DNA of 64,000 bases from Cinclus cinclus. Lineage: Eukaryota; Chordata; Aves; Passeriformes; Cinclidae. The stretch covers positions 806,001 through 870,000 of the forward strand of contig NW_026912129.1 of assembly GCF_963662255.1 (NCBI RefSeq), given 5' to 3'. A program made the position numbers and the translations under genes. Below the pieces are notes generated by a model. It worked only from the letters and a program-made list of their open reading frames with translations. It was not told the origin of the DNA and did no database searches. Positions 5,167 through 45,357 of this stretch are shown here, in pieces (the stretch's first letter is position 1; every line of letters begins with the position of its first letter).

Positions 5167-5754
5167 TGGTGAGCCAGCCAGGACAGAGTCTGTCTGGCTG
5201 CAGGAGTGGCCGAGGAGCGGATTCCCTGGCGCACCCCGGGACCTTCCCTGGAGGAACCCCGGACCTCGGCTCGCTCACCGCGGGGATAAACAACGCTGCT
5301 GGCATTGAGGATCAAACGGTATGTATTAAATATCAAGAACAGGGCTGCTAGTAAGTCGTCCAGAGACGTCTGGCACATAGCACAGTCCCGGTGGGCTTGC
5401 AAGCAGCCGGCCGAGGGGGCTGGAGACAGAGGGAGAGGGATCGAACATGGCCGATAGCGCGGCCGATGGAGGCGTGTCACTGAGCTGATAGAGCAGCCCG
5501 CTGGCGACTCTGGGGGTGAGTGGAGTGAACCCTTGTTTTGCTGCAATTTTGTGTGACTGCTAAGTCGGGACACGTGGAGTCATTGAGTGTGTCAGGGAGT
5601 GAGTGAGTGGTGAGACGTACCTTTGGTACGGAGCGAGTGCGGAGCTCTATCCGCGTTTCTGACCTCGGGTGACTGAGGCGGCCGGAGAAGAGCGAAGGAG
5701 CGGGGTCAGTACGGGGCGAGTGCAAGTGTGAACAGAGGAGTGGTGTGCTTGAAC

Positions 5755-6315
5755 ATGGAGTGGTTAGCATTCATTTTAATTGTGGACAGACAAATTGAAG
5801 GAGCCTCTCCTCAGCAGTGGTCTGGACTTGATCCCTGGGAATTTATTGATCTAATAAATCACTGGCTAGAAAGAGGGAACAAACGGGACTATCTAGGAGG
5901 GGTAGATGAAACCGCTGCGGGAAGGTTGGTAGCCTTAGACTTGGAACAACCTGCAGTAGAGACTCTGGGTGTTCCAGAGGGAGTGAACGGGATAGCTTGT
6001 TTTTGTGGGAGATGTAGAGCCATCAGAGGATCAAGGGGTTGGAATCTGGTGTGGGTTTTATTACAGAGTGGAGATTGTGAAATCCATTGGTATTGTTGCT
6101 CTAGGAACGAGCAGGGTGTATGCCCAAAGTGTAAATTGAAAAACAATCCTAATCAAGTTAGTGTTGAACCTAAAATTCTGAAGCTGGTGTGTGGAACATC
6201 ACATTGGGTGTCTGTGAGTTGGGGTTGTGTGTGGGAAGAAAACTGGGAAAGAACAGTGAAATTGTGTGAGGAAAGGTTTGGATGGAAACAGGACAGGGCA
6301 AGAAGGAGAAGATAA
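5755..6315 (+). CDS. Cysteine-rich pre-gag ORF of endogenous retrovirus, copy A
   Basis: An open frame of about 187 codons lies between the leader and gag. A further in-frame ATG at 5728 would add nine residues. The N-terminal half is acidic (WEFIDLINHWLERG, LDLEQPAVETLG). The C-terminal half has a CFCGRC cluster, then GDCEIHWYCC, then CPKC, which looks like a zinc-ribbon or treble-clef arrangement. Copy A has Ser where copy B has Cys in the GDC motif. The stop overlaps the gag ATG (TAATG at 6313-6317), suggesting coupled translation. I know no retroviral protein with this layout. Function unknown; it could be an accessory protein or a captured host domain. Confidence 0.6.
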   Translation: MEWLAFILIVDRQIEGASPQQWSGLDPWEFIDLINHWLERGNKRDYLGGVDETAAGRLVALDLEQPAVETLGVPEGVNGIACFCGRCRAIRGSRGWNLVWVLLQSGDCEIHWYCCSRNEQGVCPKCKLKNNPNQVSVEPKILKLVCGTSHWVSVSWGCVWEENWERTVKLCEERFGWKQDRARRRR

Positions 6316-7838
6316 TGGGAACTGGGCAAAGTAAAGAGATGCCTAAGGCCAGTCCATTGGGCTGTATTATTATTGGAAAGATGTTTCCGGACAAGGAGGC
6401 ACAGAAAACAAGAGAGACATTATCAGATTCTGTAAAAACTGGTGGCATTTATATAAATTGGACGAGGGAGTGAAGTGGCCACCAACTGGAACTTTGGATT
6501 ATATCACACTATCACAGCTCATGCTATTTCTTAGGAGGGAAGGAAAGTGGAGAGAGGTAGCATATGCGGACATTTTCCTCTCTTCAAAATCATCCCGAAT
6601 GACTGTGGACTCAGGGCTCCATTGGACCCTCTGGTATTGGCCCTAGAGAAGGAGAATAAGACTAAGAGAGGGAAGCTGAAGCATGGTTGTACAGCCTGCA
6701 GTATAGGGCAAAGATGCACAAAATCAGATAAGGTTTACCAGACTGTGGCCCAGGAACAAGATCTGGGAGATGATTTGCTCAGGTCTCCCCACATAAAACA
6801 GGAAAGGGATGAGGAAGAGGATGCAGACTCAGAGGTACCATCAGCCCCAGCCCATTCATCCCCTCTGATCGCACACCAGGCTAGACCACAGACACACATA
6901 TTACAGGCACCTCTGCGAGAGGCAGTGGGAACAGAGGGAGGAAGGGTGTTGGTTCATCGACTTGGAGGCATGGGAAAAGGTTGCTAAAAATTACCGCAGC
7001 AATCCCGTTAACGTGGCTAAATGTCCGTGATATATAATAAAACAACACAATCCAGATTGGAGCGCTATGCAGCTTTTATTGGATGCACTGGCCAAGACAG
7101 AGAAACAATTAATTATAAAAATAGGGGGATCCGGCAGAAGATTATTCTAAAATCCAACAATGGGATGTGAAAGATTATTTCCCATTCCACAATGCACAGT
7201 GGCACCCAAAAACATCAGCAGAATTGAGATGGCTGGTAATCTATCAGGAGTGGATTGCAAAGGGGATGTTAAGAGCCATTTGCAAGACTGTGAATTGGTC
7301 AGCATTGTATGAAATTATGTCCTCGAGTTGCCATCCAAATTCCTTGGTCGATTAAGGGATGCAATGTGCCACCACACATCACTGCACCCTGGAACTGAAG
7401 TAGGGCTACAGCAGTGAGTCAGTTTATTGCTGGGGCAATCTACAGGTGACATAAGATGTAAACTTCAAAAGATACAGGGGGAGAAAGGAAGGAAGGAAGG
7501 ATGGCTCTATGTTAGAGACTCTGGTGGATGAGGCATGGAGAGTTCTTAGTAACTGGGAAGAAGGAAAGGGGAGGTTTGTAGCTGTCGTAAGTGAGAGGGA
7601 GAGAGGAAGACGCAGACAGGGACCACGTAGACATGGCCCATCCTGGCTGGGCAGAGAGCAGTGTGTGATCTGTAAGAAATATGGTCACTGGAGAAATCAA
7701 TGCTCAGAACGAAGACATGGTGGCCCTCAGGGTAAGGGAAAAAGAATTGCACCTGTCAAAGAAGAGTTTGGAGGTCCAGTAGATCTCTCCCCAGGAGATG
7801 CACTGGTTATGAAATTGAAGCTGGGGGGAAAAGGGTAA
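6315..7838 (+). pseudogene. gag: gag, frameshifted (copy A)
   Basis: The frame opens with MGTGQS at 6315, a myristoylation-type start typical of matrix proteins, and breaks by 6473. A different frame (about 6547-6987) carries a Pro/Ser/acidic segment of the kind found between matrix and capsid. Capsid-like sequence follows near 7167-7355. The nucleocapsid part (about 7509-7838) is basic and holds a single CCHC zinc knuckle, CVICKKYGHWRNQC (CX2CX4HX4C). One knuckle and an in-frame stop before protease both fit a gammaretrovirus-like element. Capsid formation from this copy is not possible because of the frame breaks. Confidence 0.75.
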
Positions 7839-8153
7839 GAAGTGAAATTTCTGGTTGACATGGGGGCAACATATTCAGCTCTGAATAAGACTTTGGCACC
7901 TGTGAGGAAGGATTATGTTACACTAACAGGAGCAACTGGCCAACCTGTAAAAGCATATTTTTGTAAACCATTAAGGTATAGGCTTGCAAAGCAATGGGGT
8001 ATTCATCAATTTCTATACCTGCCCAGTTCCCTGAGATGCCTTTTAGGGAGAGACTTGTTAGAACAATTACAAGTAACCATTAGATTTGAAAATGGGGAGG
8101 TTATTCTGGAAGTAAATGATGAACAGTACATAGAGGCATTAAGTTTAATGTGA
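7839..8153 (+). pseudogene. pro: Retroviral protease, inactive (copy A)
   Basis: Protease follows gag in the same frame, separated by a single TAA (7836-7838), the arrangement used for stop-codon readthrough in gammaretroviruses. The active-site motif reads LVDMGA at about 7853-7870, so the usual Asp-Thr-Gly has Met for Thr. The C-terminal motif LLGRDLL is present. The frame is open for about 105 codons and ends at TGA 8151-8153. Both duplicates share the Met change. Confidence 0.75.
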
Positions 8154-9693
8154 ACAGCTGTTCAAATGGAGGGAGAAATTAGTGAAGAAATAATTAATCA
8201 AGTTTCCTGGAGTGTGGGCTTCTAATGTACCAGGGAGGGCAAAAAATGCACCTCCTATAGTAATTAAACTGAAGGAAGAACAACAACCAGTTAGGATTAA
8301 ACAGTACCCCTTGAAAAGGGAGGACAAGGAAGGAATTAGCCCGATAGATGAAAAGTTTTGCAATTAGGGTTGTTAAAAGAATGTCAGTCTGAGTTCAATA
8401 CCCCCATCTGACGGGTCTTAAAACCCTGATGGGTCATATCGGATAGTACAGGATCTAAGGGCTGTTAATAAAATAACTGAAGGTCTCTATCCCGTGGTAG
8501 CAAATCCATACACTTTGCTAACGTGCCTAACACCAGAGCGAACTTGATTTACCGTTTTAGACTTGAAAGATGCCGTCTTTTGCCTCCCTCTCTGTGTGGA
8601 CAGCCACAAAATCTTTGCATTTGAGTGGGAAAACCCTAAAAGCAGGCGCAGATCCCAGCTCACATTGACGGTATTGGCTCAGGGATTTAAAAACTCTCCT
8701 ACTCTGTTTGGGGAACAATTGGCCAAAGATCTGGAATTTGGGAGGCTCCCCCAGAAGAAGGAAAGCTACTGCAGTACGTGGACGATATCCTCACAGCCAC
8801 TGGGGCAAAAGAGGCATGTGTAGCCTGGACGGTAAGCCTTCTAAACTTTCCAGGACTTGAGGGATACAGGGTGTGAAAGAAAAAGGCCCAGGTCATGAAG
8901 CAAAAGGTAATCTACCTGGGTTATGAAATTACTGTGGGACAACGGACTCCAGGGCAAGATGGCAAGGAAGCAATCTGCCAAACGCTGAAACCTCAGACAG
9001 TGAAGGAACTGGGGACATTCTTAGGAATGACAGGGTGGTGTAGGCTGTGGATACACAGCTAGGGGCTGCATCTAAAACCTCTGTACGTGCTCATTACAAA
9101 TGGGAACAGAGAACTCCGGTGCACAAAAGAGGCCACACGGGCTTTTCACCAGCTGAAGAATGCTCTCATGTCAGCTCTGGTCTGGGACTCCCAGATGGGA
9201 GTAAACCATTCTTTCTGTTTTCCCATGAGAAGCAGGGAGTTGCCCTGGGGATATTGGCCCAGGAGCTGAGTCCGTACCGGAGAGCAGTTGCTTACTTCTC
9301 CAGGCAACTAGACACAGCAGCCAAGGGATGGCCGGGATGCCTCAGAGCCATTGCAGCAGTGGTGCTGAATATTCAAGAGGCACACAAACTCACTTTGGGC
9401 CAGAAAATGACTGTATTGGTGTCTCAAACAGTGTCTGCAGTCCTGGAAGTAAAGGGTGCGAACTGGCTCTCCCCACAAAGGCTCCTGAAATACCAAGCCA
9501 TCATGGTAGAAGAAAGCAATGTAGAGATAATTGTGACTGACATCAACCCAGCTTCCTTCCTTAGTGGAAATCAAGAGGAGCCAGTACACCATGAATGCCT
9601 GGAAAATATCAAAGCCACCTTCTGCAGCCGCCCTGATGTGAAGGACACCCCCTTTAGCTGATGCAGAAACTTGTTTCACTGATGGAACCAGCT
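8154..9693 (+). pseudogene. pol: pol (RT, connection, start of RNase H), broken and truncated, copy A
   Basis: Reverse transcriptase words appear in order across several frames: the segment [13 protein letters not shown] (from 8554), then [15 protein letters not shown] (about 8680-8720), then the catalytic YVDD at 8775-8786 in a different frame. The connection domain is readable at about 9190-9661 (YFSRQLD, WLSPQRLLKYQ). RNase H starts with CFTDGTS (catalytic Asp at 9681) and is cut off at about 9693, where host gene-family intron sequence begins. Copy A has a one-base loss near 9180 that copy B lacks. No integrase or env follows. Confidence 0.8.
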
Positions 9694-11333
9694 ACGTTCC
9701 CAGGACAGCACTCCCTTCTCCCCAGGAAGTGTTGGGGATGGTTTTCCGTGGGCTTTAGGAACGCTTTCCTCTGTGGGAGGGAGAGAGCCCACAGGGACCC
9801 TGGGTGCTGCAAGTGGCCCTCCAGGGATGTTGCACAGGACATGTGTCACAGCAGAGCACACTGGGAGAGTGCTGCGACCTTCCAGGGAAGAAGCATCCTG
9901 AGAAGGACGACCTGGTGACACAGGCACGTCTACACTACCAGGCAAAGTGATTTTGGTCTTTGTGAGTCCACTTTGGTCAACACTGGAGAGAGGGACGGGA
10001 GCCCCGTGCAGTGTTCCAAGGAGAAGTTTATTGGTTTACTTCCATGGAGGGTACCAGGGATGAGCTGGCTCCAATGGACTGAGGGAGGCTGGTTTAGATG
10101 GGAAGGCTAGCGGGCAGGGTAGAGCAACACGCAAATCAACAGAGGGCACAGGGGCAGAGCAAAAGGGGGAAGGACCAATGGGGTACAAACAATCTGCCTA
10201 GAGCAGGGAGGCATGTTGGGAGGAACTTTTCCTCACCACCATGAGGGAGGTTAGTGCTTAATCACATTCCCTCCAGAGGAGAGGAGCTGCCTCTTTCTCA
10301 GTTGGCCTATTGCCCTCCACGGGCATGGAGAGAGTGTGGAGAGTGACCAGAGCCAGCGCAGAGCTCCGCAGGCCCCTCAGCAGCTTTGGCCATGTCCATT
10401 GACATCTGGCTTCCACAGCCTTACCCAAAGCCCTTGCAGTGCCCAGTTCCCTAAGGAGGAAGAAGATCCCAACACAGCATGGAAATGGTACTCATCTGTG
10501 CTCCCTTCTAGGTGAGCAGGCTGGGTATGTCATTCCACAGTCCTGGATGGATGAGAGTTTCAATCATCTGAGATTTACTAGAGGCAGATTCTCTGCATCC
10601 CTTTCCTAACTGAAAAATCGTTCTCAGCGTGGCAAGAGCTCACTCAGGTGCCACTCCCTTAAGTAGTTAATCTCAGGCTTGAAGGGTTCTGGAAACCCTG
10701 CCCTGCTCCCTTCTAGAGCCCTGAGTGATCCCACAGGATCGCTGTCAGTTGGAGGAAGGAGCATTTGGCTGTCAATCCTCTTCCCATGTGCAATGCCAGT
10801 GTCTCCTTCCGTGTGCTGTGTGCAGCCACGGAAAAGATCAGAGAGGAAAGGGGAGGGCCCAGGGCTGTGCCTTGAGAGGCTCTTTTGTTGGCCCCAGGCA
10901 GCCTGAGCATCTATTGCAGTGCTGGGATCTGTTCTATCCTACCTTTCTTTGCAGATGCACCTGTTGCTGAAGGTGATCTGGAATCCCAACCCAGAGGCAT
11001 TTCTGAGCCTGATGATGAGGAAGATGATGAGGGCAGGTCAGAGCTACTAGCTCAGAGCCCAGAGCTTGGCCAGGGGAGGCATCGCTGCAGGTGCCAGGAC
11101 AGGGCTGTTCCCGTGTGTGCCCTCGCCCTGGGCAATGCCCTCACTGCTCCTGCAGCTCAGTGCTGCCGCTGCACATCAGCAGACATGACAGAAGCTCTTG
11201 AGTTACAGGTGTCTCTGCAAGGAGAACATTCCCAGCTCCAGGGCTGGTTGTGTCACGTAGGCCCAGCTCCCATGGCAGGGGTGAGTAGAGTGTCCCTGCT
11301 GACCCAGAGGCTGACCAGTGATGGGCCCTGAGG
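9694..11333 (+). pseudogene. Relic of the exon-array gene family joined to truncated ERV (copy A)
   Basis: Sequence from 9694 matches intron 1 of the gene at 12184 (for example 12297-12380). Three family exons are recognisable, all open and phase 1-1: type e at 10512-10583, type a at 10955-11032 (acidic: ISEPDDEEDD) and type b at 11209-11280 (ends PSSHGRG). The first two have GC in place of GT at the donor. No signal-peptide exon is present and types c and d are missing. A repeat of about 480 bp interrupts it at about 9845-10320. Probably a 5'-truncated neighbour of the intact gene. Confidence 0.65.
9845..10320 (-). mobile_element. Inserted repeat, possibly antisense LTR (copy A)
   Basis: The family intron reads continuously from about 9840 to about 10322 when compared with 14541-14580, so the DNA between is an insertion. 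It holds 'agtttattgg' (reverse complement has AATAAA), suggesting an LTR-type element on the minus strand. The family was not identified. Copy B carries it at about 55935-56408. Confidence 0.35.
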
Positions 11334-11947
11334 GACTGGAGGAGCCCATGCTGAGCATCCCTGGGCTGAGGGCACATCTCCTTCAGGGGCATCATCTGAA
11401 GCTGGCCCTCCTCCAGGGACATGCCCAGGAAAAGAGGGAAGCTGTGGGATATGGGATTCTAATTGTTAAAGTTGTTAAGGGTTGTGTTCACCAGAAGGCC
11501 CTGTGGGGAAGGCTCAGCTGCAGGCTGGACAGTTAGAAGTTGGCTGGGGAGTGAGAGGCAGTTATGAGGAGGAAGGCATGGACAGCAGATCAGTGGGAAG
11601 CAGACTGAGGGGAAAAGATGCATGGGCAGACAGCAGCTGAGCCAGACAATGGGTGCCCATCTTCTCAAAAGTTTTGGTTTTGTCTGGTTGACATTAAAGG
11701 TAGAAAAGGGGGGTGATTTCTATACTAAAGCAATCTCCTTTGGATGCATATGGGGATATGCGTCTCTTTGTTCCCTGTTGCTCCAGGAAGCCATCAAGAG
11801 CATGTCCAGGGACACAGCCTGACCAGCAATGTCAGCATGCAGAACTAAGGTTCTGCTAAGCAATGGCCCTTGGATGAAGCAAAACATTTACAATCAGGGC
11901 AGCCCATTCGTACAGATGGGGGTACACTCTGGGGCTACAGCTAAGGC

Positions 11948-12022
11948 CATGAGGTCACAGCAGGCTCTGGGGTCACAGCAGGCTGAGGTCACAGCAGGCT
12001 CTGGGGTCACAGAGGTCCCAGA
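11948..12022. repeat. Short tandem 'ggtcacagcaggctctgg' repeats upstream of the gene
   Basis: Units of about 17-18 bases occur three to four times, about 160-235 bp before the start codon at 12184. Copy B has the same at about 58036-58110. This could lie in the promoter or 5'UTR. Confidence 0.6.
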
Positions 12023-12183
12023 GCCCCGTGGTTGCACAGCACCACAGCCACCGACCAGTCAGTCCTTGACCACAAACTGTTGTGGCAGCAGTGGCGGCAG
12101 CAGCAGTGGTGCTGACATTGGGACAGCGGTGTCAGAACAGCGGTGGCAGCAAGAGCTGTGGGACTGGCAGAGGGCAAGGCACC

Positions 12184-15100
12184 ATGGCCCTTGCTCTGCG
12201 CCTCTTCCTCCTGCTCCTCCTGGCAGTGGCCCTGCCTGCCAGGGCTGCCCAGGCAGCTCCGTGGCGAGGGAAGGGAGCAGGTGAGCCGGCGGCCTGGCTC
12301 CCCTTTCCCAGGACAGCGCTCCCTTCTCCCCAGGAAGCACTGGGGATGGTTTTCCATAGGGCTTTGGGGAGGCTTTCCGCTGTGGGAGGGAGGGAGGGAG
12401 GGAGGGAGGGAGCCCACAGGGGCCCTGGGCTGCCCCGGTTTCCTGTCCAGGGATGTTGCACAGGACCTGCAAACAGTGTGGAGAGTGACCAGAGGCAGCC
12501 CCAAGCTCCCTGCCAGGCCCCTGAGCAGCTTTGGCCATGTCCATTCACATCTGGCTAAAGCTCACTCATGCAGTTTTGGTTGAGATCAAGTCAGGCTTGA
12601 TGGATTCTGGAATATATGCCTTGCTGCCTTCTGAAGCCCTGGGTGATCCCACAGGATCGCTGTCAGTGGGAGGAAGGAGCATTTAGCTGTCAATCCTCTT
12701 CCCATGTGCAATGCCGGTGTCTTCTTCCATGTGCTCTGTGCATTCATGGGGAGGAGCAGAGAGGGAAGGGAAGGGAAGGGAAGGGAAGGGAAGGGAAGGG
12801 AAGGGAAGGGAAGGGAAGGGAAGGGAAGGGAAGGGAAGGGAAGGGAAGGGAAGGGAAGGGAAGGGAAGGGAAGGGAAGGGAAGGGAAGGGAAGGGAAGGG
12901 AAGGGAGCAGGGCTGTGCCTTGCACGGCTCCTTTGCCAGCCCCAGGCAGGCGGAAGATCTCCTGCAGTGCTGGGAGCTGTTCTGCCCTGACTTTCTTTGT
13001 AGATGCACCTGTTGATGAAGTGGATCAGGCTTCCCAACCCACATCTAGGACTGGGCCTCTGGGAGATGCTGAGGGTAGGTGAAGGTCTGTCCCTCTGGGG
13101 GAGCTGCCAGCTCAGAGCGCAAAGCTCATCATGGGGGACATGGCTGCAGGTGCCAGGACAGAGCTGTGCACGTGTGTGCCCTGGCCCTGTGCAATGCCCT
13201 CAGAGCTCTTGTGGCTCAGAGCTGCCCATGCAGAGCAACAGAGATGACAGAAGCTTCTGTGGCTGTTGAGTTACAGGTGTGTCTGCAGGGAAGACTTTTC
13301 AAGGTCCTTTGCTGGTTGCTGCACACCAGCCCAGCTCCCACGGCAGGGGTGAGTAGTGTGTCCCTGCTGAGCCCACAGGCTGAGCACTGCTGTTGTGGGA
13401 TCCAGTCCTGGGAAATGGAACTACTTTGCTCCAAGGTCCTCCGATGGGAAAGAAGAAAGCTACAGGACACAAGAAACTCAGTGAGCCATCTGAACGGATG
13501 ATGCAGATGCTGAAGGAAATGCTGCAGGGAAGACAAGGTGGGTGCATTTCCCTCAGCCTTCTCCTGAAACTCAGCAGCCGGGATCTACCTCTGCACATCT
13601 GGACACGCTGTGCCCAGCACAGCAGGAAGGGATTCATGGCAGCCTCAGTGCCCTGCTGCTGCTGCTGTCACACCCTGCAGAGCTGTTTCCCAGCCTGGCC
13701 TGGCTGCAGCTTCTCCCCAGCCTCTGCAGGAAGGCATTTACCATCAGCTGACAGGGAGCCTAATCTACACCATGGACCATGCACACCCTGAGATCTCCTG
13801 TAATCTGCTGGTCTCAGGGTAGATCAGGTGTAAGGGCTGTTTGGAGGACAGAGGGACCCGTCCCATCTCCAAAGTTTGGATAACTTCCTGAATCATATCC
13901 ATGACTTCAACAAGCACTGCCTCCTGAAGATGGGATCTTCCCCTTGGGGAAGAACTCCATCTGATCCAGCTATCCCTTTTCCTTTGTCCAGAGATGGAAC
14001 GGGAGACTGTGCAGAAGGCTGAGTTTCCCAGAGCAAGCAGTGCTTCTGTACCAGCCTCTGCTACAGGAAGAGAGGTGAAGCCAGGCACAGTCACAGGAGG
14101 TAATTGCTGAGCCTCTGGGCCTGAGCCCTGCTGAGCCTTGAGCTGCCATCTCTGCTGCTTGGCAGCGCGGGCACAGCCCGGACAAGAGCGGCACAAACCA
14201 GAGGAATTATCCCGAGCAGGCTCAGGGCACTCGGGTACTGAGCAGTCCTGCTGGGGTCCCTCTGTGGGAGACACTGCCTGAAAGCTGGGAGGGGCTGCAA
14301 GGGGTGCCCCTGGTGGGCAAAGGGCAGAGGGGGAGAGCAGGGCTCCAGTGTGTCCTGAGAGGGCCGGCCTCTGTCCCCTTGGGCTGGGGGAGCTGGCCCA
14401 GCAGAAGGAGGGAGGGAGGTTGGGAGGGATGATTGTGGCACTGCCTGCAGCGGTTTTTGCCAGGGATTTAGGGAGGGTTTCCTCTCGGGGACTGACAGAA
14501 ACCCCAGCGGCCCTGGGTACTACAACTGCCCCTCCAGGGATGTTGCAAAGGGCATGGAAAGAGTGTGGAGAGTGACCAGAGCCACCATAGAGCTCTCCAG
14601 GCCCCTCAGCAGCTGTGGCCATGTCCATTGACATCTGGCTGCCACAGCCTTACCTGATCCCCTTGCAATGCCCAGTTCCCTAAGGCAGAAGGGGATCCCA
14701 GCACACCATGGAAATGGTTCTCATCTGTGCTCCCTTCTAGGTGAGCGTGCTAGGAAGGCTTCTCCAGCACCTTGGCTTCATGAAGATTTTCAGCCTCTGG
14801 AGCCTCCTGCAGGTATGTTCCCAGCATCTCGCCAAGGAATAATCTTTGACAACCTGGCAGAAACCAGGTGACAGAATCTTCTGTGGCTATTGAGTTACAG
14901 GTGTGTCTGCAGGGAAGACTTTTCAAGCTCCTTTGCTGGTTGCTGCACACAAGCCCAGCTCCCACGGCAGGGGAGAGTAGTGTGTCCCTGCTGAGCCCAC
15001 AGGCTGAGCACTACTTTTATGGGATCCATTCATCTGAAATGGAAATACTTCCTCTTAAGTTCCACCAAGAGAGAGGTACAAACCTACAGGAGACAATAAG

Positions 15101-18100
15101 TCCCTGGAGGTATCCAAACACATGGCCAAGATGCTGAGTGATCTGGAGAGACGCCGTGGTGGGTGCATTTCCCTCAGCCTTCTGCTGAGACTCAGCAGCC
15201 GGGGGCTTTCTCTGCACATCTGGACACGGCACAGCAGGGAGGGATCCATGGCAGCCTCGCTGCCCTGCTGCTGCTGCTGCTGTCACACCCTGCAGAGCTG
15301 TTTGCCAGCCTGGCCTGGCTGCAGCTTCTCCCCAGCCTCTGCAGGAAGGCGTTTGCCATCAGCTGACTGGGAGCCCAATCTACACCATGAGCCCTTCACA
15401 CCCTGAGATCCCCTGTAATTTCCTGGTCTCCCAGCACATAAGTGGAGCAGCTCTTTGGAGGAGGGAGGCCCTGGCCAGTCCCAGTAACCTAGCCTTTCTC
15501 CTGATCCTTCTCTATGTCCTTTGGCAAGCCTTGCCTCTTGAAATTGGCACGTCCCCAGTGCGGAACAACTCCATCTGACCCAATTGTCCCTTTTGCTTTC
15601 TCCAATCATGAAAGGAAAGACTGTGCTGAAGACTGGAATTCCCAGAGGAAGCAGTGGTTCATTGGCAGCCTCTGCTACAGGAAGAGAGGTGAAGCCAGGC
15701 ACAGTTACAGGAGGTAATTGCTGAGCCTCTGGGCCTGAGCCCTGCTGAGCCTTGAGGTGCCATCTCTGCTGCTTGGCAGTGCAGGCACAGAGCATTGCCT
15801 GACCCCCTTGAAGTGCTCTGTTCCCTGTAGATGGGGATCCCAGCACACCATGGAATGGTTCCCATCTGTGCTCCTTCTAGACTGGGGTCGTGACTTGCAT
15901 CGTTTGGAAATGCTGGTAAACCCTGGTTTAATGGTGTTGGAGCGTGGTGAAGGTAAGTTATCGGAGCCCTTTCCTAACACCATAAACGTTGCCAAAGTGT
16001 AAACATTGTCCAGAGCAATATTCATGTGTCGTTTCCCTTAAGATCCTCTGAAGCTGGGTGGATTCTGGAAATCTTGGCCTGGAAATTTCTACTCTTGTGC
16101 CCAACAGCCATCCCACAGGATCGCTGTCAGTGGGAGGAAGGAGCATTTAACTGTCAGTCCTCTTCCACTTTTCAATGCCACGTTTTCCTTCCTCTGTGCA
16201 GCCACAGAGAAGAGCAGAGAGGGAAGGGGAGGGCCCACGGCAGTGCCCCAGGGCTGTGCCTTGCATAGCTCCTTTGCTGGCCCCAGGCAGGCTGAGGATC
16301 TCCTGCAGTGTTGGGAACTGTTCTGGACTTCCTTTCTTTGCAGATGAACATATTGGTCAAGGTGATCTGGAATCCCAACCCATAGCCATTTCTGAGCCTG
16401 ATGATGAGGGAGAAAATGAGGGTAGGTTAAGGCCCATCCTCCTGGTGTAGGTCAGAGCTACTAACTCAGAGCCCAAAGCTCAGCATGGGGGACATGGCTG
16501 CAGGTGCCAGGACAGAGCTGTGCACGTGTGTGCCCTGGCCCTGTGCAATGCCCTCAGAGCTCTTGTGGCTCAGTGCTGCCCGTGCAGAGCAACAGACATG
16601 ACAGAAGCTTCTGTGGCTGTTGAGTTACAGGTGTGTCTGCAGGGAAGACTTTTCAAGCTCCTTTGCTGCTTACTGCACACAAGCCCAGCTCCCATGGCAG
16701 GGGTGAGTAGTGTGTCCCTGCTGAGCCCACAGGCTGAGCACTACTTTTATGGGATCCATTCTTCTGAAATGGAAATACTTCCTCTTAAGTTCCACCAAGA
16801 GAGAGGTACAAACCTACAGGAGACAATAAGTCCCTGGAGGTATCCAAACACATGGCCAAGATGCTGAGTGATCTGGAGAGACGCCGTGGTGGGTGCATTT
16901 CCCTCAGCCTTATGCTGAGACTCAGCAGCTGGGGGCTTTCTCTGCACATCTGGATATGGCACAGCAGGGAGGGATCCATGGCAGCCTCGCTGCCCTGCTG
17001 CTGCTGCTGCTGTCACACCCTGCAGGGCTGTTTGCCAGCCTGGCCTGGCTGCAGCTTCTCCCCAGCCTCTGCAGGAAGGCGTTTGCCATCAGCTGACTGG
17101 GAGCCCAATCTACACCATGAGCCCTTCACACCCTGAGATCCCCTGTAATTTCCTGGTCTCCCAGCACATAACTGGAGCAGCTCCTTGGAGGAGGGAGGCC
17201 CTGGCCAGTCCCAATAACCTAGCCTGTCTCCTGATCCTTCTCTATGTCCTTTGGCAAGCCTTGCCTCTTGAAAATTGCACGTCCCCAGTGCGGAACAACT
17301 CCATCTGACCCAATTGTCCCTTTTGCTTTCTCCAATCATGAAAGGAAAGACTGTGCTGAAGACTGGAATTCCCAGAGGAAGCAGTGGTTCATTGGCAGCC
17401 TCTGCTGCAGGAAGGGAGGTGAAGCCAGGCACAGTCACAGGAGGTAATTGCTGAGCCCTGCTGAGCCTTGAGGTGCCATCTCTGCTGCTTGGCAGTGCAG
17501 GCACAGAGCATTGCCTGACCCCCTTGAAGTGCTCTGTTCCCTGTAGATGGGGATCCCAGCACACCATGGAATGGTTCCCATCTGTGCTCCTTCTAGACTG
17601 GGGTCGTGACTTGCATCGTTTGGAAATGCTGGTAAACCCTGGTTTAATGGTGTTGGAGCGTGGTGAAGGTAAGTTATCGGAGCCCTTTCCTAACACCATA
17701 AACGTTGCCAAAGTGTAAACATTGTCCAGAGCAATATTCATGTGTCGTTTCCCTTAAGATCCTCTGAAGCTGGGTGGATTCTGGAAATCTTGGCCTGGAA
17801 ATTTCTACTCTTGTGCCCAACAGCCATCCCACAGGATCGCTGTCAGTGGGAGGAAGGAGCATTTAACTGTCAGTCCTCTTCCACTTTTCAATGCCACGTT
17901 TTCCTTCCTCTGTGCAGCCACAGAGAAGAGCAGAGAGGGAAGGGGAGGGCCCACGGCAGTGCCCCAGGGCTGTGCCTTGCATAGCTCCTTTGCTGGCCCC
18001 AGGCAGGCTGAGGATCTCCTGCAGTGTTGGGAACTGTTCTGGACTTCCTTTCTTTGCAGATGAACATATTGGTCAAGGTGATCTGGAATCCCAACCCATA

Positions 18101-21100
18101 GCCATTTCTGAGCCTGATGATGAGGGAGAAAATGAGGGTAGGTTAAGGCCCATCCTCCTGGTGTAGGTCAGAGCTACTAACTCAGAGCCCAAAGCTCAGC
18201 ATGGGGGACATGGCTGCAGGTGCCAGGACAGAGCTGTGCACGTGTGTGCCCTGGCCCTGTGCAATGCCCTCAGAGCTCTTGTGGCTCAGTGCTGCCCGTG
18301 CAGAGCAACAGACATGACAGAAGCTTCTGTGGCTGTTGAGTTACAGGTGTGTCTGCAGGGAAGACTTTTCAAGCTCCTTTGCTGCTTACTGCACACAAGC
18401 CCAGCTCCCATGGCAGGGGTGAGTAGTGTGTCCCTGCTGAGCCCACAGGCTGAGCACTACTTTTATGGGATCCATTCTTCTGAAATGGAAATACTTCCTC
18501 TTAAGTTCCACCAAGAGAGAGGTACAAACCTACAGGAGACAATAAGTCCCTGGAGGTATCCAAACACATGGCCAAGATGCTGAGTGATCTGGAGAGACGC
18601 CGTGGTGGGTGCATTTCCCTCAGCCTTATGCTGAGACTCAGCAGCTGGGGGCTTTCTCTGCACATCTGGATATGGCACAGCAGGGAGGGATCCATGGCAG
18701 CCTCGCTGCCCTGCTGCTGCTGCTGCTGTCACACCCTGCAGGGCTGTTTGCCAGCCTGGCCTGGCTGCAGCTTCTCCCCAGCCTCTGCAGGAAGGCGTTT
18801 GCCATCAGCTGACTGGGAGCCCAATCTACACCATGAGCCCTTCACACCCTGAGATCCCCTGTAATTTCCTGGTCTCCCAGCACATAACTGGAGCAGCTCC
18901 TTGGAGGAGGGAGGCCCTGGCCAGTCCCAATAACCTAGCCTGTCTCCTGATCCTTCTCTATGTCCTTTGGCAAGCCTTGCCTCTTGAAAATTGCACGTCC
19001 CCAGTGCGGAACAACTCCATCTGACCCAATTGTCCCTTTTGCTTTCTCCAATCATGAAAGGAAAGACTGTGCTGAAGACTGGAATTCCCAGAGGAAGCAG
19101 TGGTTCATTGGCAGCCTCTGCTGCAGGAAGGGAGGTGAAGCCAGGCACAGTCACAGGAGGTAATTGCTGAGCCCTGCTGAGCCTTGAGGTGCCATCTCTG
19201 CTGCTTGGCAGTGCAGGCACAGAGCATTGCCTGACCCCCTTGAAGTGCTCTGTTCCCTGTAGATGGGGATCCCAGCACACCATGGAATGGTTCCCATCTG
19301 TGCTCCTTCTAGACTGGGGTCGTGACTTGCATCGTTTGGAAATGCTGGTAAACCCTGGTTTAATGGTGTTGGAGCGTGGTGAAGGTAAGTTATCGGAGCC
19401 CTTTCCTAACACCATAAACGTTGCCAAAGTGTAAACATTGTCCAGAGCAATATTCATGTGTCGTTTCCCTTAAGATCCTCTGAAGCTGGGTGGATTCTGG
19501 AAATCTTGGCCTGGAAATTTCTACTCTTGTGCCCAACAGCCATCCCACAGGATCGCTGTCAGTGGGAGGAAGGAGCATTTAACTGTCAGTCCTCTTCCCC
19601 TTTTCAATGCCACGTTTTTCTTCCTCTGTGCGGCCACAGAGAAGAGCAGAGAGGGAAGGGGAGGGCCCACGGCAGTGCCCCAGGGCTGTGCCTTGCATGG
19701 CTCCTTTGCTGGCCCCAGGCAGGCTGAGGATCTCCTGCAGTGTTGGGAACTGTTCTGGACTTCCTTTCTTTGCAGATGAACATATTGGTCAAGGTGATCT
19801 GGAATCCCAACCCATAGCCATTTCTGAGCCTGATGATGAGGGAGAAAATGAGGGTAGGTCAAGGCCCATCCTCCTGGTGTAGGTCAGAGCTACTAACTCA
19901 GAGCCCAAAGCTCAGGCAGGGGGACATGTCTGCAGGTGCCAGGACAGAGCTGTGCATGTGTGTGCCCTGGCCCTGGGCAGTGCCCTCAGAGCTCTCGTGG
20001 CTCAGTGCTGCCCGTGCAGAGCAACAGACATGACAGAAGCTTCTGTGGCTGTTGAGTTACAGGTGTGTCTGCAGGGAGGATTTTTCAAGCTCCTTTGCTG
20101 CTTACTGCACACAAGCCCAGCTCCCATGGCAGGGGTGAGTAGTGTGTCCCTGCTGAGCCCACAGGCTGAGCACTGCTGTTGTGGGATCCAGTCCTCTGGA
20201 ATGGAAATACTTGCTGTTACGATCTGCCAAGAGGGAGGAACAAACCTACAGGAGACAATAAGTCCCTGGAGGTATCCAAACACATGGCCAAGATGCTGTG
20301 TGATCTGGAGAGACGCCGTGGTGGGTGCATTTCCCTCAGCCTTCTGCTGAGACTCAGCAGCCGGGGGCTTTCTCTGCACATCTGGACACGGCACAGCAGG
20401 GAGGGATCCATGGCAGCCTCGCTGCCCTGCTGCTGCTGCTGCTGTCACACCCTGCAGAGCTGTTTGCCAGCCTGGCCTGGCTGCAGCTTCTCCCCAGCCT
20501 CTGCAGGAAGGCGTTTGCCATCAGCTGACTGGGAGCCCAATCTACCCCACGGGCCAAGCACAACTTGAGATCTCCTGCAATTTCCTGGTCTAAGGGTAGA
20601 TCTGGAGGGGCAGCTTTGCGGAGAAGTGTGGGTTCTGGAGCAGTTCCAAACCCCTGGGCATTTTCCTTGTCCTTTTCCATGTATTTTGAGAAATATTACC
20701 TGGAGAAGAATAACACAGCCCTGGGGAATTATCCCATGTAGTCTCAGGGGTTTGGGTACTGAGCAGCCCTGTGCCAAGGCCTGCCAATGTGCCCCAGGCC
20801 CCAGCTCTGGGGGAAAGAGAAAACGTTCTGGCTGTATCCACTGAGCTGCCAGCTCAGCAGTGGAGCCCAGCATGGGCTCACACTCCCCACTGCTCCCACA
20901 GATGCAGTTGGCACCTCAGCACGTGCTGAAAATCTTGGGAAAAGCACGAGAAGAGTTTTCTGCTGGGGAACCCGTTGTCTGATTAAGTTAGTGGCCATTG
21001 TGGCTGGTGGGGCAGTGCTCCTGATGATGTGCTCTGCCGGAATCTGGTTTTGCTGGAAGAGGAAATGGTGAATGTTTTGCTGATCTCTGCCTCAAAGAGC

Positions 21101-21789
21101 TTCTTTTCAAGGCTGCTGATAGTCAGGAAACATTGCCAGTGAGGCTGCTGTGTAGTTTTGGATCATCAGTGGTTGTCCAAAAAACTCTGCTGAGGGTTCT
21201 GCTGCTGCCCAGTGCTTTATTTGGCCTCTTCATTGCTGGGCCTTGTCCTGGGGAGCCCGCTGGGGCTGCAGCCAGTGCTGGCTCCCACTGAGGCTGCGTG
21301 GCCAAGAGCAGCCCCAGGAGCAGCGGGCAGAGGCAGAGCAAGGTGGGGAGGAGAAAGAGCAGGGAGCAGATTGCCCTTGAAAGGCAGACGAGCTCTGGAG
21401 CCCGCTCCTGGCCAGGGACCCTGCCCAGAGCCATCCCCTGCTCACCAGGGCCTTGAGGGGCACCTGTCCAGCTGGGCCAAGGTGTGTCGGCAGCTCCAGC
21501 CGTGCTGGGGAGCCTTTCCAGCTCTGGGCCCTGCTGTGCAGGAGGGTCCCTGTGTGCCACGGGCAGCTGGGGCCTCAGCCATTCCTCTCTCCACAGGTGC
21601 TGCTGTGCAGACTCAGAAGAGCCGCCCAAGAGCTCAGGCAGTGAGAACTTGACTCCCAGTTCTTCACGTCTGTCCCCATCTGCCCTGGTGTGGCTGCAGC
21701 CCCGTCTTGAGCGCGTCCCAGCACCCAGACCTCCAAAACGAGAACCCCTGCCCCCGAGCCCCCTGGCCCTGCTCCCCAGCCCAGACTGA
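12184..21789 (+). CDS. Exon-array single-pass membrane protein gene, copy A (25 exons, unknown family)
   Basis: Exons: 12184-12280, 13003-13074, 13277-13348, 13406-13537, 13992-14099, 14741-14812, 14901-14972, 15060-15158, 15615-15713, 15881-15952, 16344-16421, 16631-16702, 16790-16888, 17345-17443, 17597-17668, 18060-18137, 18347-18418, 18506-18604, 19061-19159, 19313-19384, 19776-19853, 20063-20134, 20192-20320, 20902-21067, 21597-21789. Exon 1 has a Kozak ACCATGG and a signal peptide (LALRLFLLLLLAVALPA). Every middle exon is phase 1-1. Five types repeat: a, acidic (SEPDDEGENEG); b (PSSHGRG end); c, charged (DLERRRG end); d (VKPGTVTGG end); e (DLHRLEMLVNPG). The penultimate exon encodes one TM helix (LVAIVAGGAVLLMMC), the last a tail with WCCC and a PxxPxR motif. 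The joined frame is about 790 codons. Likely type I surface protein; function unknown. The exon at 14901 lacks its GT donor in copy A; skipping it keeps the frame. Confidence 0.7.
12755..12906 (+). repeat. GGGAA polypurine microsatellite in intron 1 (copy A)
   Basis: About 29-30 uninterrupted GGGAA units, a pure purine strand about 150 bp long. It can form triplex or G-rich structures. The long ORFs across it in every frame are artefacts of the repeat. Confidence 0.95.
14880..20545 (+). repeat. 1.7-kb tandem exon array, copy A (three units plus partial)
   Basis: Type-b exons start at 14901, 16631, 18347 and 20063, giving spacings of 1730, 1716 and 1716 bases. The second and third units are almost base-identical, including introns. 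The first is 14 bases longer (ctctgggcctgagc retained near 15725). Each unit contributes one set of exons b-c-d-e-a, 420 coding bases, so unit gain or loss changes the protein by 140 residues without breaking the frame. Confidence 0.95.
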
Positions 21790-21842
21790 AATTGGGCAGC
21801 CCCTCTCTGCCATGGCAGGGATTGGCCCACGTTTCAAGTTCA

Positions 21843-21848
21843 AATAAA
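21843..21848 (+). terminator. Polyadenylation signal AATAAA of the exon-array gene
   Basis: AATAAA lies 54 bases after the stop codon at 21787-21789, followed by a short GT-rich stretch. It gives a compact 3'UTR and supports the last-exon model. Confidence 0.75.
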
Positions 21849-21866
21849 GAAATTGAGTTGTCACAG

Positions 21867-23358
21867 TGTGCTGGTTTTATCTTGAAGGCACCTGAGGGGA
21901 GGGAATACTAGGAAGTTTTTCTCCATGAGAACTTCCTCTGTGAATTGATGGCACCAATTGGAGGCTGGTTTAGCTGTTGACAGCCTGAGAAACCAATTGG
22001 AAAAGCCAGTTCTCTCCGTGAATCACATTTGAAGCAATTAAACGCCGGGAAAAGCTCTCTTTCATTTCTGACATCTCACAAGGTAACCCCAACCTGGGCC
22101 AGGCCCCCTTCCAACGCGGCCCGGGCCAGGCAGGGGTGGGCTCGGGAGGCTGCTGGGCCCCGTTTTCAACCAGCGGCCCCAATAGCCAAAAAGAAGAAAA
22201 GGCCATTGCTAAGATCCTCGCCCTCCCCCGGTGTGGCCGCGGCTCGGGGGGCCCTGCCCTGCCCCCGTTCAGAGCAGCCCTGGGGTGGCCGAGCCCGCCC
22301 AGCCGCCCTCGCGGCCTGGGGGGAGGCAGCTGGGCCCTGGTTTGGCAGAGCCCCCCACGCCTTTGCTTGTCGGGCAAGGCAGAGGGAGAACCCCCGGCCC
22401 GCGGCTGGAGCTGGGTGCAGCTGGCACCGGAGGGCAGCCATGGAGCCAGAGCCTTGTCACCGATTTCTCCTCTGACTGGACTCTGCAGTTTTCATCCGCC
22501 CCCACCCCCAGCGCGGCCTGGGCGGCCTGAGATCCTGACACAGCTCCAGCATGGCCTGGCCAAAACCCTGCAACTTCTGTGTGAGATTTTTAACTTTTTC
22601 CAGTACTCAGATAAGACTTACAGGCCTTTGATCCTTCCTTGTGTGAAAGGAAAAAGAACAGAAAGGATACACCAAAGTCAGTGAAGCAAAAGCTAAGTTT
22701 CCACATGGAAGGAGAATGAGGAGACACCATGAAGGCTGGCTGAAAAATCTTTTTCTAAGTTACAGGGGTGGACTGTGCTACACTAAAAATTCCTTGAAAC
22801 CACGGAGAAAGACATGGGGGGTGTGGTGAGGTGGGAAGTGTTTTGGAAGATCCTTTGCCCCGAGGGAAAAAGGGGGATCTCTGTTCCTGGGAATGAAATA
22901 TGAACAGAGGGAAGAGAGCTGAAGAGAACTTTTGCCTTTGAGTAGCTCATCCTTAAAAGTAAAACCCCATGACTTTGACAAGGCCCACAAGCACAGCTCT
23001 GGGAAGGCTGTGAAGGTGGGACGAGTATCACGATTGCAGATCTCCGGGCGGCTGCTGTTCATGAAGAAAAGTGAAGTCAGGAGAGAACTGGTTATTTCCT
23101 CTCTTGAAAAGGATCCCGATAGTTGAACAAGAAGAAACTCCTCTCCCCGATGTGAACTGAAAAAGATTTTTTAAGTAAAGGAATTGACTGAAATGTCTCT
23201 GTATGTTGTTAAAGTGTGAAAAGAAGAAGGAGAAAGTAGTCTGAAGATCTATTCTGAATTTATTATTATTTTCCTTTGTGTTGATAATAAAGTTTTTATT
23301 TATCCCCTGTTAAGTTTTGGGCCTGCTTTGCTTTTACTCCTAATTCCATTTCACAACA
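21867..23358 (+). mobile_element. Solo LTR-like element (avian ERV type)
   Basis: The segment starts TGTGCTGGTTTT, a start I associate with passerine ERVL-type LTRs, and ends TTCACAACA, giving TG...CA ends. It has a GC-rich core and an AATAAAG about 70 bases before the end (23287-23293). I see no clear target-site duplication (flanks tcacag and aaaggt). It begins only 19 bases after the poly(A) signal of the exon-array gene. Confidence 0.55.
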
Positions 23359-35386: not shown

Positions 35387-38300
35387 TCAGCAGGAGGGCT
35401 GCTGCTGCCCTGAGCTCCTGGAGGACTCTTCTCCTTCACAAGCCGATGTATTTTCCTGGGCAGACTTGCGGACAGGTAATGTAAAGTAATCTGAGGGCAA
35501 TTCTCTCCTGAAAGTTCTAGTTCTTCTCCCTTCAGTTGCCACCTGCACATTGGATGAGAGAGAGGGTCACAGAAACCTGCCAGCAAACATGAAGCCAAAG
35601 GACCTATGGACATCAAGGCAAGGACGTCTCTGCTCAGACACCCTGAACTGCACCAGACAACACTGAGGGCAAAAAGCTCTCACTGGCAGCTGTGCAAGAG
35701 TGTCCAGTGTGTGTCCGGGGACACGGCGCCAGGGAGGGAGGCAGTGGAGTGAAGGTGCCTTTGTGAAAGCCATGGGCTGCCACAACAGACAGAGCAAACA
35801 AAAGGCTGTGCCCACAGCAGGGACAGGGAGAGGCAAGCAAACAAGCAGAGGACTCCAGAGCGCTGCCTGGGCTAATGTGCCGTGTTCCAGAGGAGCCTGA
35901 GGCTCTGCACAGGCAGTGAAAGCCCATTTTACCTCCACAGTCCTCCTGGGGTCAGTGGTTGCTTCACGCTTCTCTGGCTTGTCTTCTGCTGATGTTGCAA
36001 CCACATGCCACACACTTTCCATGCCATTCCTGGAGTGCTCGGACAGCTGCTTCCCTTCTGCTCCAGCAGCCTGATGGGTATTCAGAGAGGAGATGATTGC
36101 CTTATTTCAAACACCACAAAAGCTGTAATCAGAAATCTCGGTGTTGGGAAACATCCTCGAAGCACCAGCAGTGCAGCTGCTGTTCAGCCTGCTAGGTACA
36201 AAACTCTGCTCAGTTTAGTTCATCACTCTGCTCACCTGCTCCATTCCTTTGCACACAGAATCCAAAACCCCACATGGTGCCTACCCTTGCCTGGACAAAG
36301 GACAAGCAGCTCCCCATGCCCAGCTTTGGGCCTGGAGCTGATTTGAACAGCAAGTTCCTGCACAGCCAGCCCAGGCTCAGGGAGCAAACTCTCCCAAAGT
36401 TCAGAGCATTCCACATGGGAGCAGAGCACAATGTGGGCAACCAAGGCCAGCGGGAGAAGGAGACTTCAAGCACTGCTGAGGCCTTGAAACTCCTCCAACT
36501 CCGCTTTCCTGACACCGTGGGCTAGTATTGCAGAGGAGCCAGAGGCTTTGCAGAGGCAGCAAAAGACCATTTTACCTGCTCGCCAGTTCTCCTGGGCTCA
36601 GTGCTCAATCCAGGCCACTCTTTCCTCTCAGTTTCTGATGATGAAACGTGTTGCAAACATTCTAGGCTGGTGTCTGACATATAGAACAGCTGCACCACTT
36701 CTCCTTCAAAACCCGGCTGGGGATACAGAGAGGAGAAGATTCCCTTATTTCAAACACCACACAAGCTGTAATTCAGAAATCTCCATCACAGGAAGCATCC
36801 TCAAGGCACCAGCAGTGCAGCTGCTGTCCAGCCTCCAGGGTACAAGACTCTGCTCAGGCTACTTCATCACTCTCCTCATCTGCTCCATTCTTTCCCACAC
36901 CAAATCCAAATCCCCATGTGTTGCCTGCCCTTGCGTGGGCAGGGGAGAAGCAGCTCCCCATGCCCAACTTTTGGCCTGGAGCTAATTTGAACAGCAAGCT
37001 CCAGAGCTGTTCAGTCATTCAGGGCGTGCCAGGAAACAACCTGGCAGTCAATGCTCGCTGTCTGGAGCCAGGCACACAGACAAGGCTGCCTGCTGCAGCC
37101 CGGGCTGCTTGGCCTAAGCAGGCCTGGACTGACAGGGATAGAGAGTCCCAATTCTTTAGGGGGAGCATCATTGCAATCATTCAGGGATGTTGCAGTGGAA
37201 TGAAGGGCAATGCCAGAGCATACCAGAATACAAGATTTTCCCTTCAGGATGTCCAAATGTTTCTTCAAAGTCCCTTTGGCCATTTCACTCTTGCTAAGTG
37301 CAGCCCTCAGGACTTGAGCTTCCTCAATCCATTTCTTCAAAGCAGCAGACCCATGCTCCAACTCCTCCTGCATGCTTTCCCCCTCCACATCTAATTGTTG
37401 ACTCTTTTCCATTTGATTTCTCATCTCAGCTACAGGCATTTCATTCTTCTTTGCCAGATATCTCATGTGCTGCTGGTCCAAATCCCGTTCATGCTGCAAA
37501 ACAGGGACAAAAAGGGTCACTCATTCCCTCTCTCACTTTGCTTTTCATACCACATCTGGACTCCTGCCACAGGGGCAGGCACAGGCTGCCCCTCTCTCTC
37601 TGCTTCTCAGGATGCTGCAGACCTTTGCAGGGGCCTCCTTGATACTGCATCTTTCCCAGCTCGCTCAGCCCATCCCAGCTTCCTTCCTGCCCTTCCCCGA
37701 CCTCTTGCAGCTCCACTCCAGTGTTCCTTTGGAAAGGAGATGCCAGAACTGCAGCCAGGATTGCAAGCCCACGCTAAGCAGGATTTAGGCAGTGCCAGGA
37801 GGATGTGCTCTCCATCAGGGAGCTTCGAAGGGAAGAGCAAACACCCCCAGCATGTCATTCCCTGGGGCTGGGGCAACAGCAGTGGTTTTCCACCTCTTCT
37901 CTGTAGAGTTTCCATGGCACCATCCCCAGAGCCCCACTGTCCTCTCCTGGAGCAGCAATGGCCAGATCAGGCTGTCATTCTCTGCTGCCACTCAGGACGA
38001 GTTCTCCCCTTGCAGGCACACGTCCTTCTCTGCAGCAGCACTTGGCTGTCCTCTCTTCTCTCCCCACTGGCTGCTCTCACAGGGCCAAGGCCAAACACCT
38101 TTCTATGAACAGCAAACTTGCTCTTCTCACCCCTCCTTCCACGTCCAGATGTTTAGAAATCTGAACATGGCTTAGCACATGAGGAATTGCCCAAACCATG
38201 CAATATCAATACAGTGTGGGCATTGAGAACTAAAGCTTCTAGGGCACAGAACTCCAGCATGGAGGAAAATCAGCAGCCTCAGCACTATGTAGCTTTGACA

Positions 38301-44300: not shown

Positions 44301-45357
44301 AACCAGTCTCATTTCCAAAACCAACCTCAATCCTGTCCTTTTCTGCCTGGGCTGATGATTCCTTCCACTGCTTGGTGTTCTTCTGATGCAGACTCAAGGC
44401 TCCTGGCTCCAGGATTCCAATGCATTGCTGCACCGTTTCCCGGGACTTGTCCATGTTTGCAAAGTCACTGCAGAGACAAGGCTCATTCAGAAGAACCAAG
44501 AGGCCTGAAGGGTCACCGATCCCATTTTCAGCACACCCGGATGGAGCAGGGTGCAGTGGGCTAAGGAAGACCTTGCTCTTTCCCTCCCGAGGAAATCCTC
44601 CAGAGACAAAGGGAAAGGAAGGCAGGATTTTGCCTTCCTTCAGTGAGATGCACTGGCTGGGCAGGGGTACACAAAGAACAGAATTCGGGGAAGCAGCATG
44701 GTGTGAAGAAGGAATCTTCTCTTCCAATATGGCTCGGCATCTCCCAGACAGCCTTGGGAGTCACAGTAGAGCATGAAAAACCCAGACAGGACGATGCTCG
44801 AGAGCCACACTGAGGCCTAGGCATGGGAGGACAGGGGATTTCTTCTCCCAGGACCCCTCTGAACTCCCAGGCCTGGAAGCAGATTGCCTCTGGAACACAG
44901 GAGGAGAAGGAGCAGGAAGAAAAACTCACCTTCTGATATCTTCTAGCAGACACTCTATGTCTTGCTGGTAGCTTCTGAACCTCTGGCTCTTCTCTGCCAT
45001 TTGCTCAAAAAGTTGACACAAGCGCCCACAATTCTCAGTGGCTTGCTGAACCAGTTCAAAGGGATCCTGTTCATCGGTGGGTGCCTGAGTTGAGAGGATG
45101 TTCCCAGGACTGTCAGTGCACATGATGGAATTGGCCATGCTGTCACTGTCATCTAACAGCACCTGAAAGCCCACATCCAGCTGTTAGTCAGCTATTCTGA
45201 TCCTATTGCAAAGTACCACTGAGATGCCTCTTCGGATCTCACAAGAACCAGTTTCCATTCCTGGAGAAGCACTTTCAAAATCCCAGCCAGCTCTGCACAG
45301 TTCACTCACCTCAGGGGCTCTGGAGGAACGTCCCCGGTGAGAAAGGCCTCGAACTCC
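35387..45357 (-). CDS. Long coiled-coil protein, centrosomal/rootletin-like (15 exons, 5' end missing)
   Basis: Minus-strand exons in transcript order: 45357-45310, 45162-44930, 44467-44326, 44258-44142, 43529-43359, 42745-42611, 42334-42191, 41720-41440, 40232-40073, 39506-39203, 38594-38440, 37493-37224, 36689-36576, 36046-35933, 35542-35387 (TGA). Each has AG acceptor and GT donor, and phases join exactly (for example IR+S across 44930/44467, KD+R across 41440/40232). Together 2544 bases give 847 residues with no stop. Most of it is heptad-rich Leu/Glu/Gln/Lys coiled coil (ERERHHAEMLQQW; LEEAERQNKELQVHL; LRVRLQRCDDKALALVRQ). The first exons are non-helical (HRGRSSRAPE). No start Met is seen, so one or more 5' exons are missing. 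Family is inferred from composition; NuMA, golgin or CEP250 relatives are alternatives. Donor at 44142 (gttacc) is weak. Confidence 0.75.
35880..36370 (-). repeat. Tandem exon duplication within coiled-coil gene, unit 1
   Basis: Matches 36523-37010 at a constant offset of 643 bases: the exon donor context (cattttacct), 'ttatttcaaacaccaca' and 'aagcagctccccatgcccaac/gctttgg'. Contains the 38-codon exon 36046-35933 (starts LSEHSRNG, ends PRRTVE). The exon is phase 0-0, so duplication left the frame intact. Confidence 0.85.
36523..37010 (-). repeat. Tandem exon duplication within coiled-coil gene, unit 2
   Basis: Second unit, with the exon 36689-36576 (starts LFYMSDTS, ends PRRTGEQ). The two exons have the same 114-base length and matching splice sites, but the proteins have diverged considerably, so this is an older event than the 46-kb duplication. 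Confidence 0.85.
43725..44115 (-). mobile_element. CR1-like fragment in coiled-coil gene intron
   Basis: 'tcatggaatcatttttgttgg', 'aaagaccttcccaagcattgagtccaacca' match the conserved CR1-adjacent 3' phrase found in avian genomes. It sits beside the exon 44258-44142 and may explain that exon's weak donor. Extent and orientation are uncertain. Confidence 0.5.

Follow-up and report, generated by a model that had tools for sequence, protein, structure and literature searches.

A candidate gene built from serial phase 1-1 exons

The DNA analysed here is a 64,000-nucleotide (nt) stretch of the Cinclus cinclus genome (the window). At 12184–21848 on its plus strand lies a long series of short open segments that we consider, on balance, to be a real protein-coding gene, predicted from its sequence to specify a single-pass type I membrane protein without a recognised domain. 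An earlier note on this DNA had joined 25 exons here without a stop. Rebuilding that model reproduced it exactly: the frame is open over 790 amino acids (aa) with one terminal stop, and 22 segments of 72–132 nt are all of phase 1-1, as had been claimed. New with respect to the earlier note are a second, shorter gene (copy B; 58272–63672, plus strand), a relic upstream of the first gene (10512–11280, plus strand) and the difference in cassette number between the two genes.

The model starts with an exon holding the start codon and signal peptide (12184–12280; donor score 10.8), which ends in phase 1 and shows 0/97 differences from the second gene. The splice-site weights behind this and all later scores are approximate. 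There follow segments of five types, lettered a to e and numbered by unit. Unit 1 comprises a (13003–13074; acceptor 9.6, donor 7.7), a doubtful exon b (13277–13348; acceptor 4.7, donor 9.1), a 132-nt c with a weak acceptor (13406–13537, alternative start 13436; acceptor 2.7), d (13992–14099; acceptor 13.2, donor 7.9) and e (14741–14812; acceptor 8.6, donor 9.6). Unit 2 consists of b (14901–14972), c (15060–15158; acceptor score about 0), d (15615–15713; acceptor 4.3, donor 7.9) and e (15881–15952; acceptor 7.6, donor 12.5). With a period of 1716 bp, unit 3 (16344–17668) then presents a at 16344–16421, b at 16631–16702, c at 16790–16888, d at 17345–17443 and e at 17597–17668, and unit 4 (18060–19384) presents them at 18060–18137, 18347–18418, 18506–18604, 19061–19159 and 19313–19384. 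The incomplete unit 5 (19776–20320) holds a at 19776–19853, b at 20063–20134 and c at 20192–20320 or 20234–20320. The exon types were said to recur in a fixed a-b-c-d-e order; this describes the full units, but the second unit lacks a, the last stops after c, and we count about four or five module types. The array is closed by an exon for a juxtamembrane segment and one predicted transmembrane helix (20902–21067, phase 2 at its end; low-confidence helix at exon residues 16–34) and by a tail exon that runs from a WCCC motif through a Pro-rich, presumably cytoplasmic tail to TGA (21597–21789). The AATAAA polyadenylation signal expected 3′ of the tail exon is present at 21843–21848.

The first intron contains a pure AGGGA array, with 29 copies at 12762–12906 and 19 copies in the second gene at 58846–58940. 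Across 11000–22000, CpG is heavily depleted (observed/expected 0.06–0.27 in 500-bp bins).

Exon type b, and with it the count of 25 exons and 790 residues, was probably too generous, and we dropped it from the preferred model. Its divergence is intron-like: b1 and b3 differ at 5/72 sites against 29/240 in the flanks, and b3 and the relic copy b0 at 18/72 against 65/219. Moreover, b2 is followed by GA instead of GT, the other internal boundaries of the 25-segment model all being AG/GT, so that 24 of the 25 exons splice as drawn. Neither b1 nor b3 has a stop in any frame (b0 has one in all), and the open frame of b therefore means little. Counting for b as an exon is the strong donor (9.1) that b0 retains after 25% divergence. 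Without b, the model has 20 exons, 17 of them symmetric 1-1 and 72–132 nt long, and encodes 670 aa; with the four b segments that can be spliced, it encodes 766 aa.

The proposal of a type I membrane protein made of serial 1-1 exons agrees with hydropathy at both expected places, as far as that measure goes. In the 670-aa version, the mean over 19-residue windows exceeds 1.6 only at the N terminus (window starts 1–8) and at 574–603 (starts 574–585), the next best value being 0.44. Between these lies a predicted ectodomain of 552 residues with 4 Cys, 84 Lys plus Arg and 88 Asp plus Glu, arranged in cassettes of about 116 residues over four exons. Net charge runs from −5 to −10 in a, from +4 to +5 in c, from 0 to +4 in the Ser/Gly/Thr-rich, neutral to basic d, and from −1 to −2 in the short, variable e. 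An N-glycosylation sequon is present in all five c copies (NKS in four, NGT in c1). The tail, WCCC followed by Pro-rich sequence, has no tyrosine, and its Cys cluster is presumably lipidated, a guess from its motif.

The absence of a recognised domain, another claim of the earlier note, was borne out for a 409-aa shortened form of the joined protein, which matched no PDB sequence and no Pfam family above the cut-off (the one entry listed, TM_ErbB1, scored 13.4 bits where 27.1 were required). The same Pfam scan returned no immunoglobulin (Ig), epidermal growth factor (EGF) or lectin domain above the cut-off, and the ectodomain is nearly Cys-free. Hidden-Markov-model and structure-prediction searches had been proposed for the full protein. 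The former was made with this shortened form; the latter, made with AlphaFold2 on single exons, gave one helix at residues 27–40 of c1 (mean predicted local distance difference test score, pLDDT, 72.1) and a poor model of the transmembrane exon. The peptide of that exon found no relative in bacterial or archaeal contigs. Many low-complexity ectodomains are not in Pfam, and the locus could accordingly be a real gene that arose when a known vertebrate gene, not modelled there, expanded in one lineage, and thus no new family. We regard this as possible but doubtful: neither Pfam nor PDB offered a candidate, although such libraries have limited power to exclude one.

Splice signals, reading frame and divergence of the modules

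The earlier note held that so many segments sharing one phase were unlikely to arise by chance. We therefore counted strong splice sites (score 7 both) bounding open symmetric segments of 60–140 nt in a 6.3-kb region from which most repeat copies had been removed; units 1 and 2, a3, b5, c5 and the transmembrane and tail exons were retained, so the region still includes diverged copies of a, c, d and e. Seven such pairs are 1-1 in phase, two are 0-0 and no pair is 2-2, whereas a Markov model with the same dinucleotides yields 0.2–0.3 per phase (mean 0.3 for 1-1) and reached seven in 0/60 runs. Strong 1-1 pairs numbered 0 on the gene's reverse strand and 0–2 in eight other stretches (5.0–6.3 kb; four regions, both strands). 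The seven pairs correspond to five distinct exons (a1, d1, e1, e2 and a3) and two nested alternatives. The 385 codons of the distinct modules contain no in-frame stop where 10 are expected at the intronic rate (P about 4e-5, uncorrected for the choice of open segments).

The exon array is nevertheless less independent evidence than it appears, because units 2–5 are close copies of one another. The segment 14869–18875 matches 16599–20591 at 98.0% over 4.0 kb, 15735–17882 is identical over all its 2148 bp to the sequence 1716 bp downstream, and 16599–18314 differs from 18315–20030 at 13/1716 sites. Most of the exons therefore go back to recent copying of four or five types of module.

Older divergence among the modules provides a separate view of the frame. 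Ten module versions are stop-free in the predicted frame, whereas 16/20 readings of their other frames contain stops, and modules a, c and e have stayed open despite 13–61% divergence. With random substitutions in the same numbers, all six comparisons would be stop-free with a probability of about 0.01 on the assumption, not fully justified, that they are independent. The indels within modules, of 6 and 3 nt, are both multiples of three; in the same alignment, intron indels measure 7, 9, 3, 1, 1, 1 and 14 nt (2/7 multiples). These results bear on the possibility that the locus is a non-coding tandem repeat with accidental open segments and splice motifs. The low intronic stop rate (2.6%), which favours short open segments, would suit such a repeat, as would an intronic stretch as divergent as the modules. 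We consider it very unlikely in view of the excess of splice pairs, the frame kept in diverged modules, and a signal peptide and transmembrane segment predicted at the correct ends with AATAAA after them.

Compared along their length, units 1 and 3 are most divergent in a and c; in c, the rise begins near the acceptor of the 132-nt form and the fall comes at its donor. Module a differs at 22/72 sites (flanks 42/233), c at 38/99 (31/231), d at 19/108 (73/225) and e at 44/72 (91/232), so that only a and c lie clearly above both flanks combined; e exceeds its nearly unchanged 5′ neighbour, and its 3′ flank is divergent too. In the relic, a0 differs from a3 at 10/78 sites and e0 from e1 at 32/72. 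This profile looks like one of diversifying exons inside homogenised introns. A general statement that exons evolve faster than introns was tried and rejected: 65/613 windows lying outside a1, d1 and the short form of c1 match the divergence of c1, all of them starting at 13792–13856, and 103/701 and 161/601 outside windows are as divergent as a1 and d1, respectively.

The ratio of nonsynonymous to synonymous substitution rates (dN/dS) is 2.89 for a1/a3, 0.89–0.95 for c1/c3, 0.87 for d1/d3, 1.74 for e1/e3 (near saturation) and 1.08 for e1/e0; summed over unit 1 versus unit 3, the nonsynonymous proportion is 0.37 and the synonymous 0.30. Module a leans towards amino-acid change: two overlapping comparisons contain 26 changed codons, and their 23 unchanged codons carry no silent change. 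In module c, the synonymous proportion (0.40–0.41) equals the nonsynonymous (0.38–0.40). The earlier comparison with rapidly evolving surface receptors is borne out only in part: a, c and e have diverged strongly between old units, but so has an intron at about 13792–13957, the flanks of d and e are divergent as well, and in c the silent sites have changed as much as the others. We conclude that coding is likely; with that intronic stretch as divergent as the modules, selection on them is unproven.

A second gene copy, an upstream relic and their surroundings

Sequence 1–21395 of the window recurs at 46063–64000, two units shorter and at an offset of about 46 kb. The two copies are 99.2% identical over the first 12.9 kb (0.84% divergent) and about 97.8% identical across the gene. 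Exon types are the same in the second gene, which has two fewer cassettes of 116 aa each; its 11 modelled exons are open up to the transmembrane exon, with AG before 10/10 exons after the first and GT after 11/11. Its tail exon was not found within the 64,000-nt window. With b left out, genes A (12184–21848) and B differ at 6/1052 exon sites and 69/4514 intron sites (Fisher P 0.011); with the longer c forms, the exon count becomes 6/1124. A 40-bp minisatellite of 3.3 copies occurs in both duplication halves (301–432 and 46363–46494).

We examined whether part of this duplication could be an assembly artefact, with haplotypes placed side by side or units miscounted. One report put figures on false duplications in older assemblies of the zebra finch and hummingbird genomes (PMC9516828), and the copies here differ by only 0.8–2.2%, with the exact 2148-bp match at a shift of 1716 bp pointing the same way. 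That the copies lie 24.7 kb apart, with other sequence between them, and differ by two whole units makes an artefact rather unlikely, and the gene model itself would be unaffected by it.

Several observations weigh against a functional gene. The start of gene A has no CpG island (observed/expected 0.24), and the AlphaFold2 model of the transmembrane exon alone reached a mean pLDDT of 55.6. No b or c segment is among the strong splice pairs of the reduced region at the threshold used; the acceptors of c2 and c3 are very weak (score about 0; the sequence of c4 is identical), those of c1 and c5 are weak (2.7), and the AG that serves c2–c4 as acceptor is lost in c5. Five of the six A/B exon changes alter the protein, which is not a purifying pattern, and the exon divergence of 0.57% is not strikingly low, given that the first 12.9 kb are only 0.84% divergent. 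Any function, finally, would be read from composition only. The lost c5 acceptor and the protein-altering changes would also fit a recently dead or dying array, that is, a once-functional orphan gene expanded by segmental duplication and now mostly unexpressed. So would the missing donor of b2 and the state of the relic, in which e0 (10512–10583) and a0 (10955–11032) have GC at the expected GT, b0 (11209–11280) keeping its GT. We judge such an array unlikely, since the joined frame of gene A is free of stops and gene B is free of them up to the transmembrane exon, with intact splice dinucleotides.

Just 5′ of the relic, an endogenous retrovirus remnant occupies 5677–9661 on the plus strand, with a second copy at 51755–55751 seen in the list of open reading frames (ORFs) only. 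One of its ORFs is RNase H-like and scores above the cut-off (RT_RNaseH, E 1.4e-8), a zinc-knuckle-like ORF falls below it, and two more have no meaningful match; the ORF at 9044–9661 found no relative in viral contigs. Elsewhere, 37011–43691 on the minus strand contains several coiled-coil-like open segments with weak matches to coiled-coil families, one of them to the CEP250 coiled coil and below the cut-off; the three stop-masked frames of minus-strand 36000–45000 gave no Pfam match at E 0.01. Scans of the window against Rfam and for tRNA genes returned nothing, and a simple motif for the 3′ ends of bird CR1 elements had no match.

A possible family of length-variable surface proteins

If the preferred reading of a real gene is right, a signal peptide would be followed by an ectodomain in which cassettes of about 116 residues are strung together, each encoded by four phase 1-1 exons: an acidic a, a basic c with a predicted helix and an N-glycosylation sequon, a Ser/Gly/Thr-rich d and a short, variable e. 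One hydrophobic helix, a probably lipidated Cys cluster and a Pro-rich tail without tyrosine would complete the protein. All cassette exons being symmetric, unequal crossing-over could add or remove the 1716-bp unit, and splicing could skip single exons, with the frame kept in either case; the length of the ectodomain would therefore be able to change quickly. Judged from composition, the protein would most likely serve as a glycosylated, flexible, charge-patterned surface spacer or ligand where change is fast, for instance in immunity or in contact between gametes.

Similar architectures exist elsewhere. Tropoelastin, a vertebrate extracellular protein, likewise strings together cassette exons of phase 1-1 that alternate in character; its VPG-type hydrophobic repeats and Ala/Lys cross-link exons are not apparent here, and the present gene has a predicted transmembrane helix and a tail. 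Chicken major histocompatibility complex (MHC) B-G proteins form expanded bird families and share the type I topology predicted here as well as serial small repeated exons. They differ in carrying an Ig-V domain and repeats in the cytoplasmic tail, whereas the repeats here are on the predicted ectodomain side and no Ig match was obtained. The schistosome micro-exon genes (MEGs), according to one report, combine a signal peptide with a coding region of mostly very small symmetric exons, yield variants by alternative splicing, encode secreted or membrane-anchored products, show dN/dS >1 in three cases and are apparently restricted to platyhelminths (PMC4350168). The signal peptide and the predominance of small symmetric coding exons are common to both; the gene here is from a vertebrate, its exons are larger (72–132 nt) and arranged as an ordered tandem cassette, and they are followed by a predicted transmembrane helix and long tail. 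Songbird-unique genes offer a parallel as lineage-specific genes in duplicated, rearranged regions, one of them for a membrane protein, and nothing resembling the present gene appears in the 12 of 55 places of that source that were covered (PMC4377847). Our literature search, judged on titles and the starts of abstracts, found no published description of such a gene.

More tentatively, the locus may represent an undescribed, lineage-restricted family of vertebrate surface proteins in which a four-exon cassette, repeated in tandem in variable number, forms the ectodomain. In such a family, recombination would homogenise much of the flanking intron while exons diverge, and neighbouring genes, probably also individuals, would differ in the number and sequence of their cassettes.

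If expressed, the gene would give a vertebrate a surface protein that lacks known domains and varies in length by entire exon cassettes, with no effect on the frame. Genes of this kind, with their short exons and repetitive array, are easily missed in automatic annotation. Unequal crossing-over within a gene, together with exon skipping, has been proposed to generate diversity in the micro-exon genes of parasites, and this one would directly test whether the two processes do so for a surface protein of a host.
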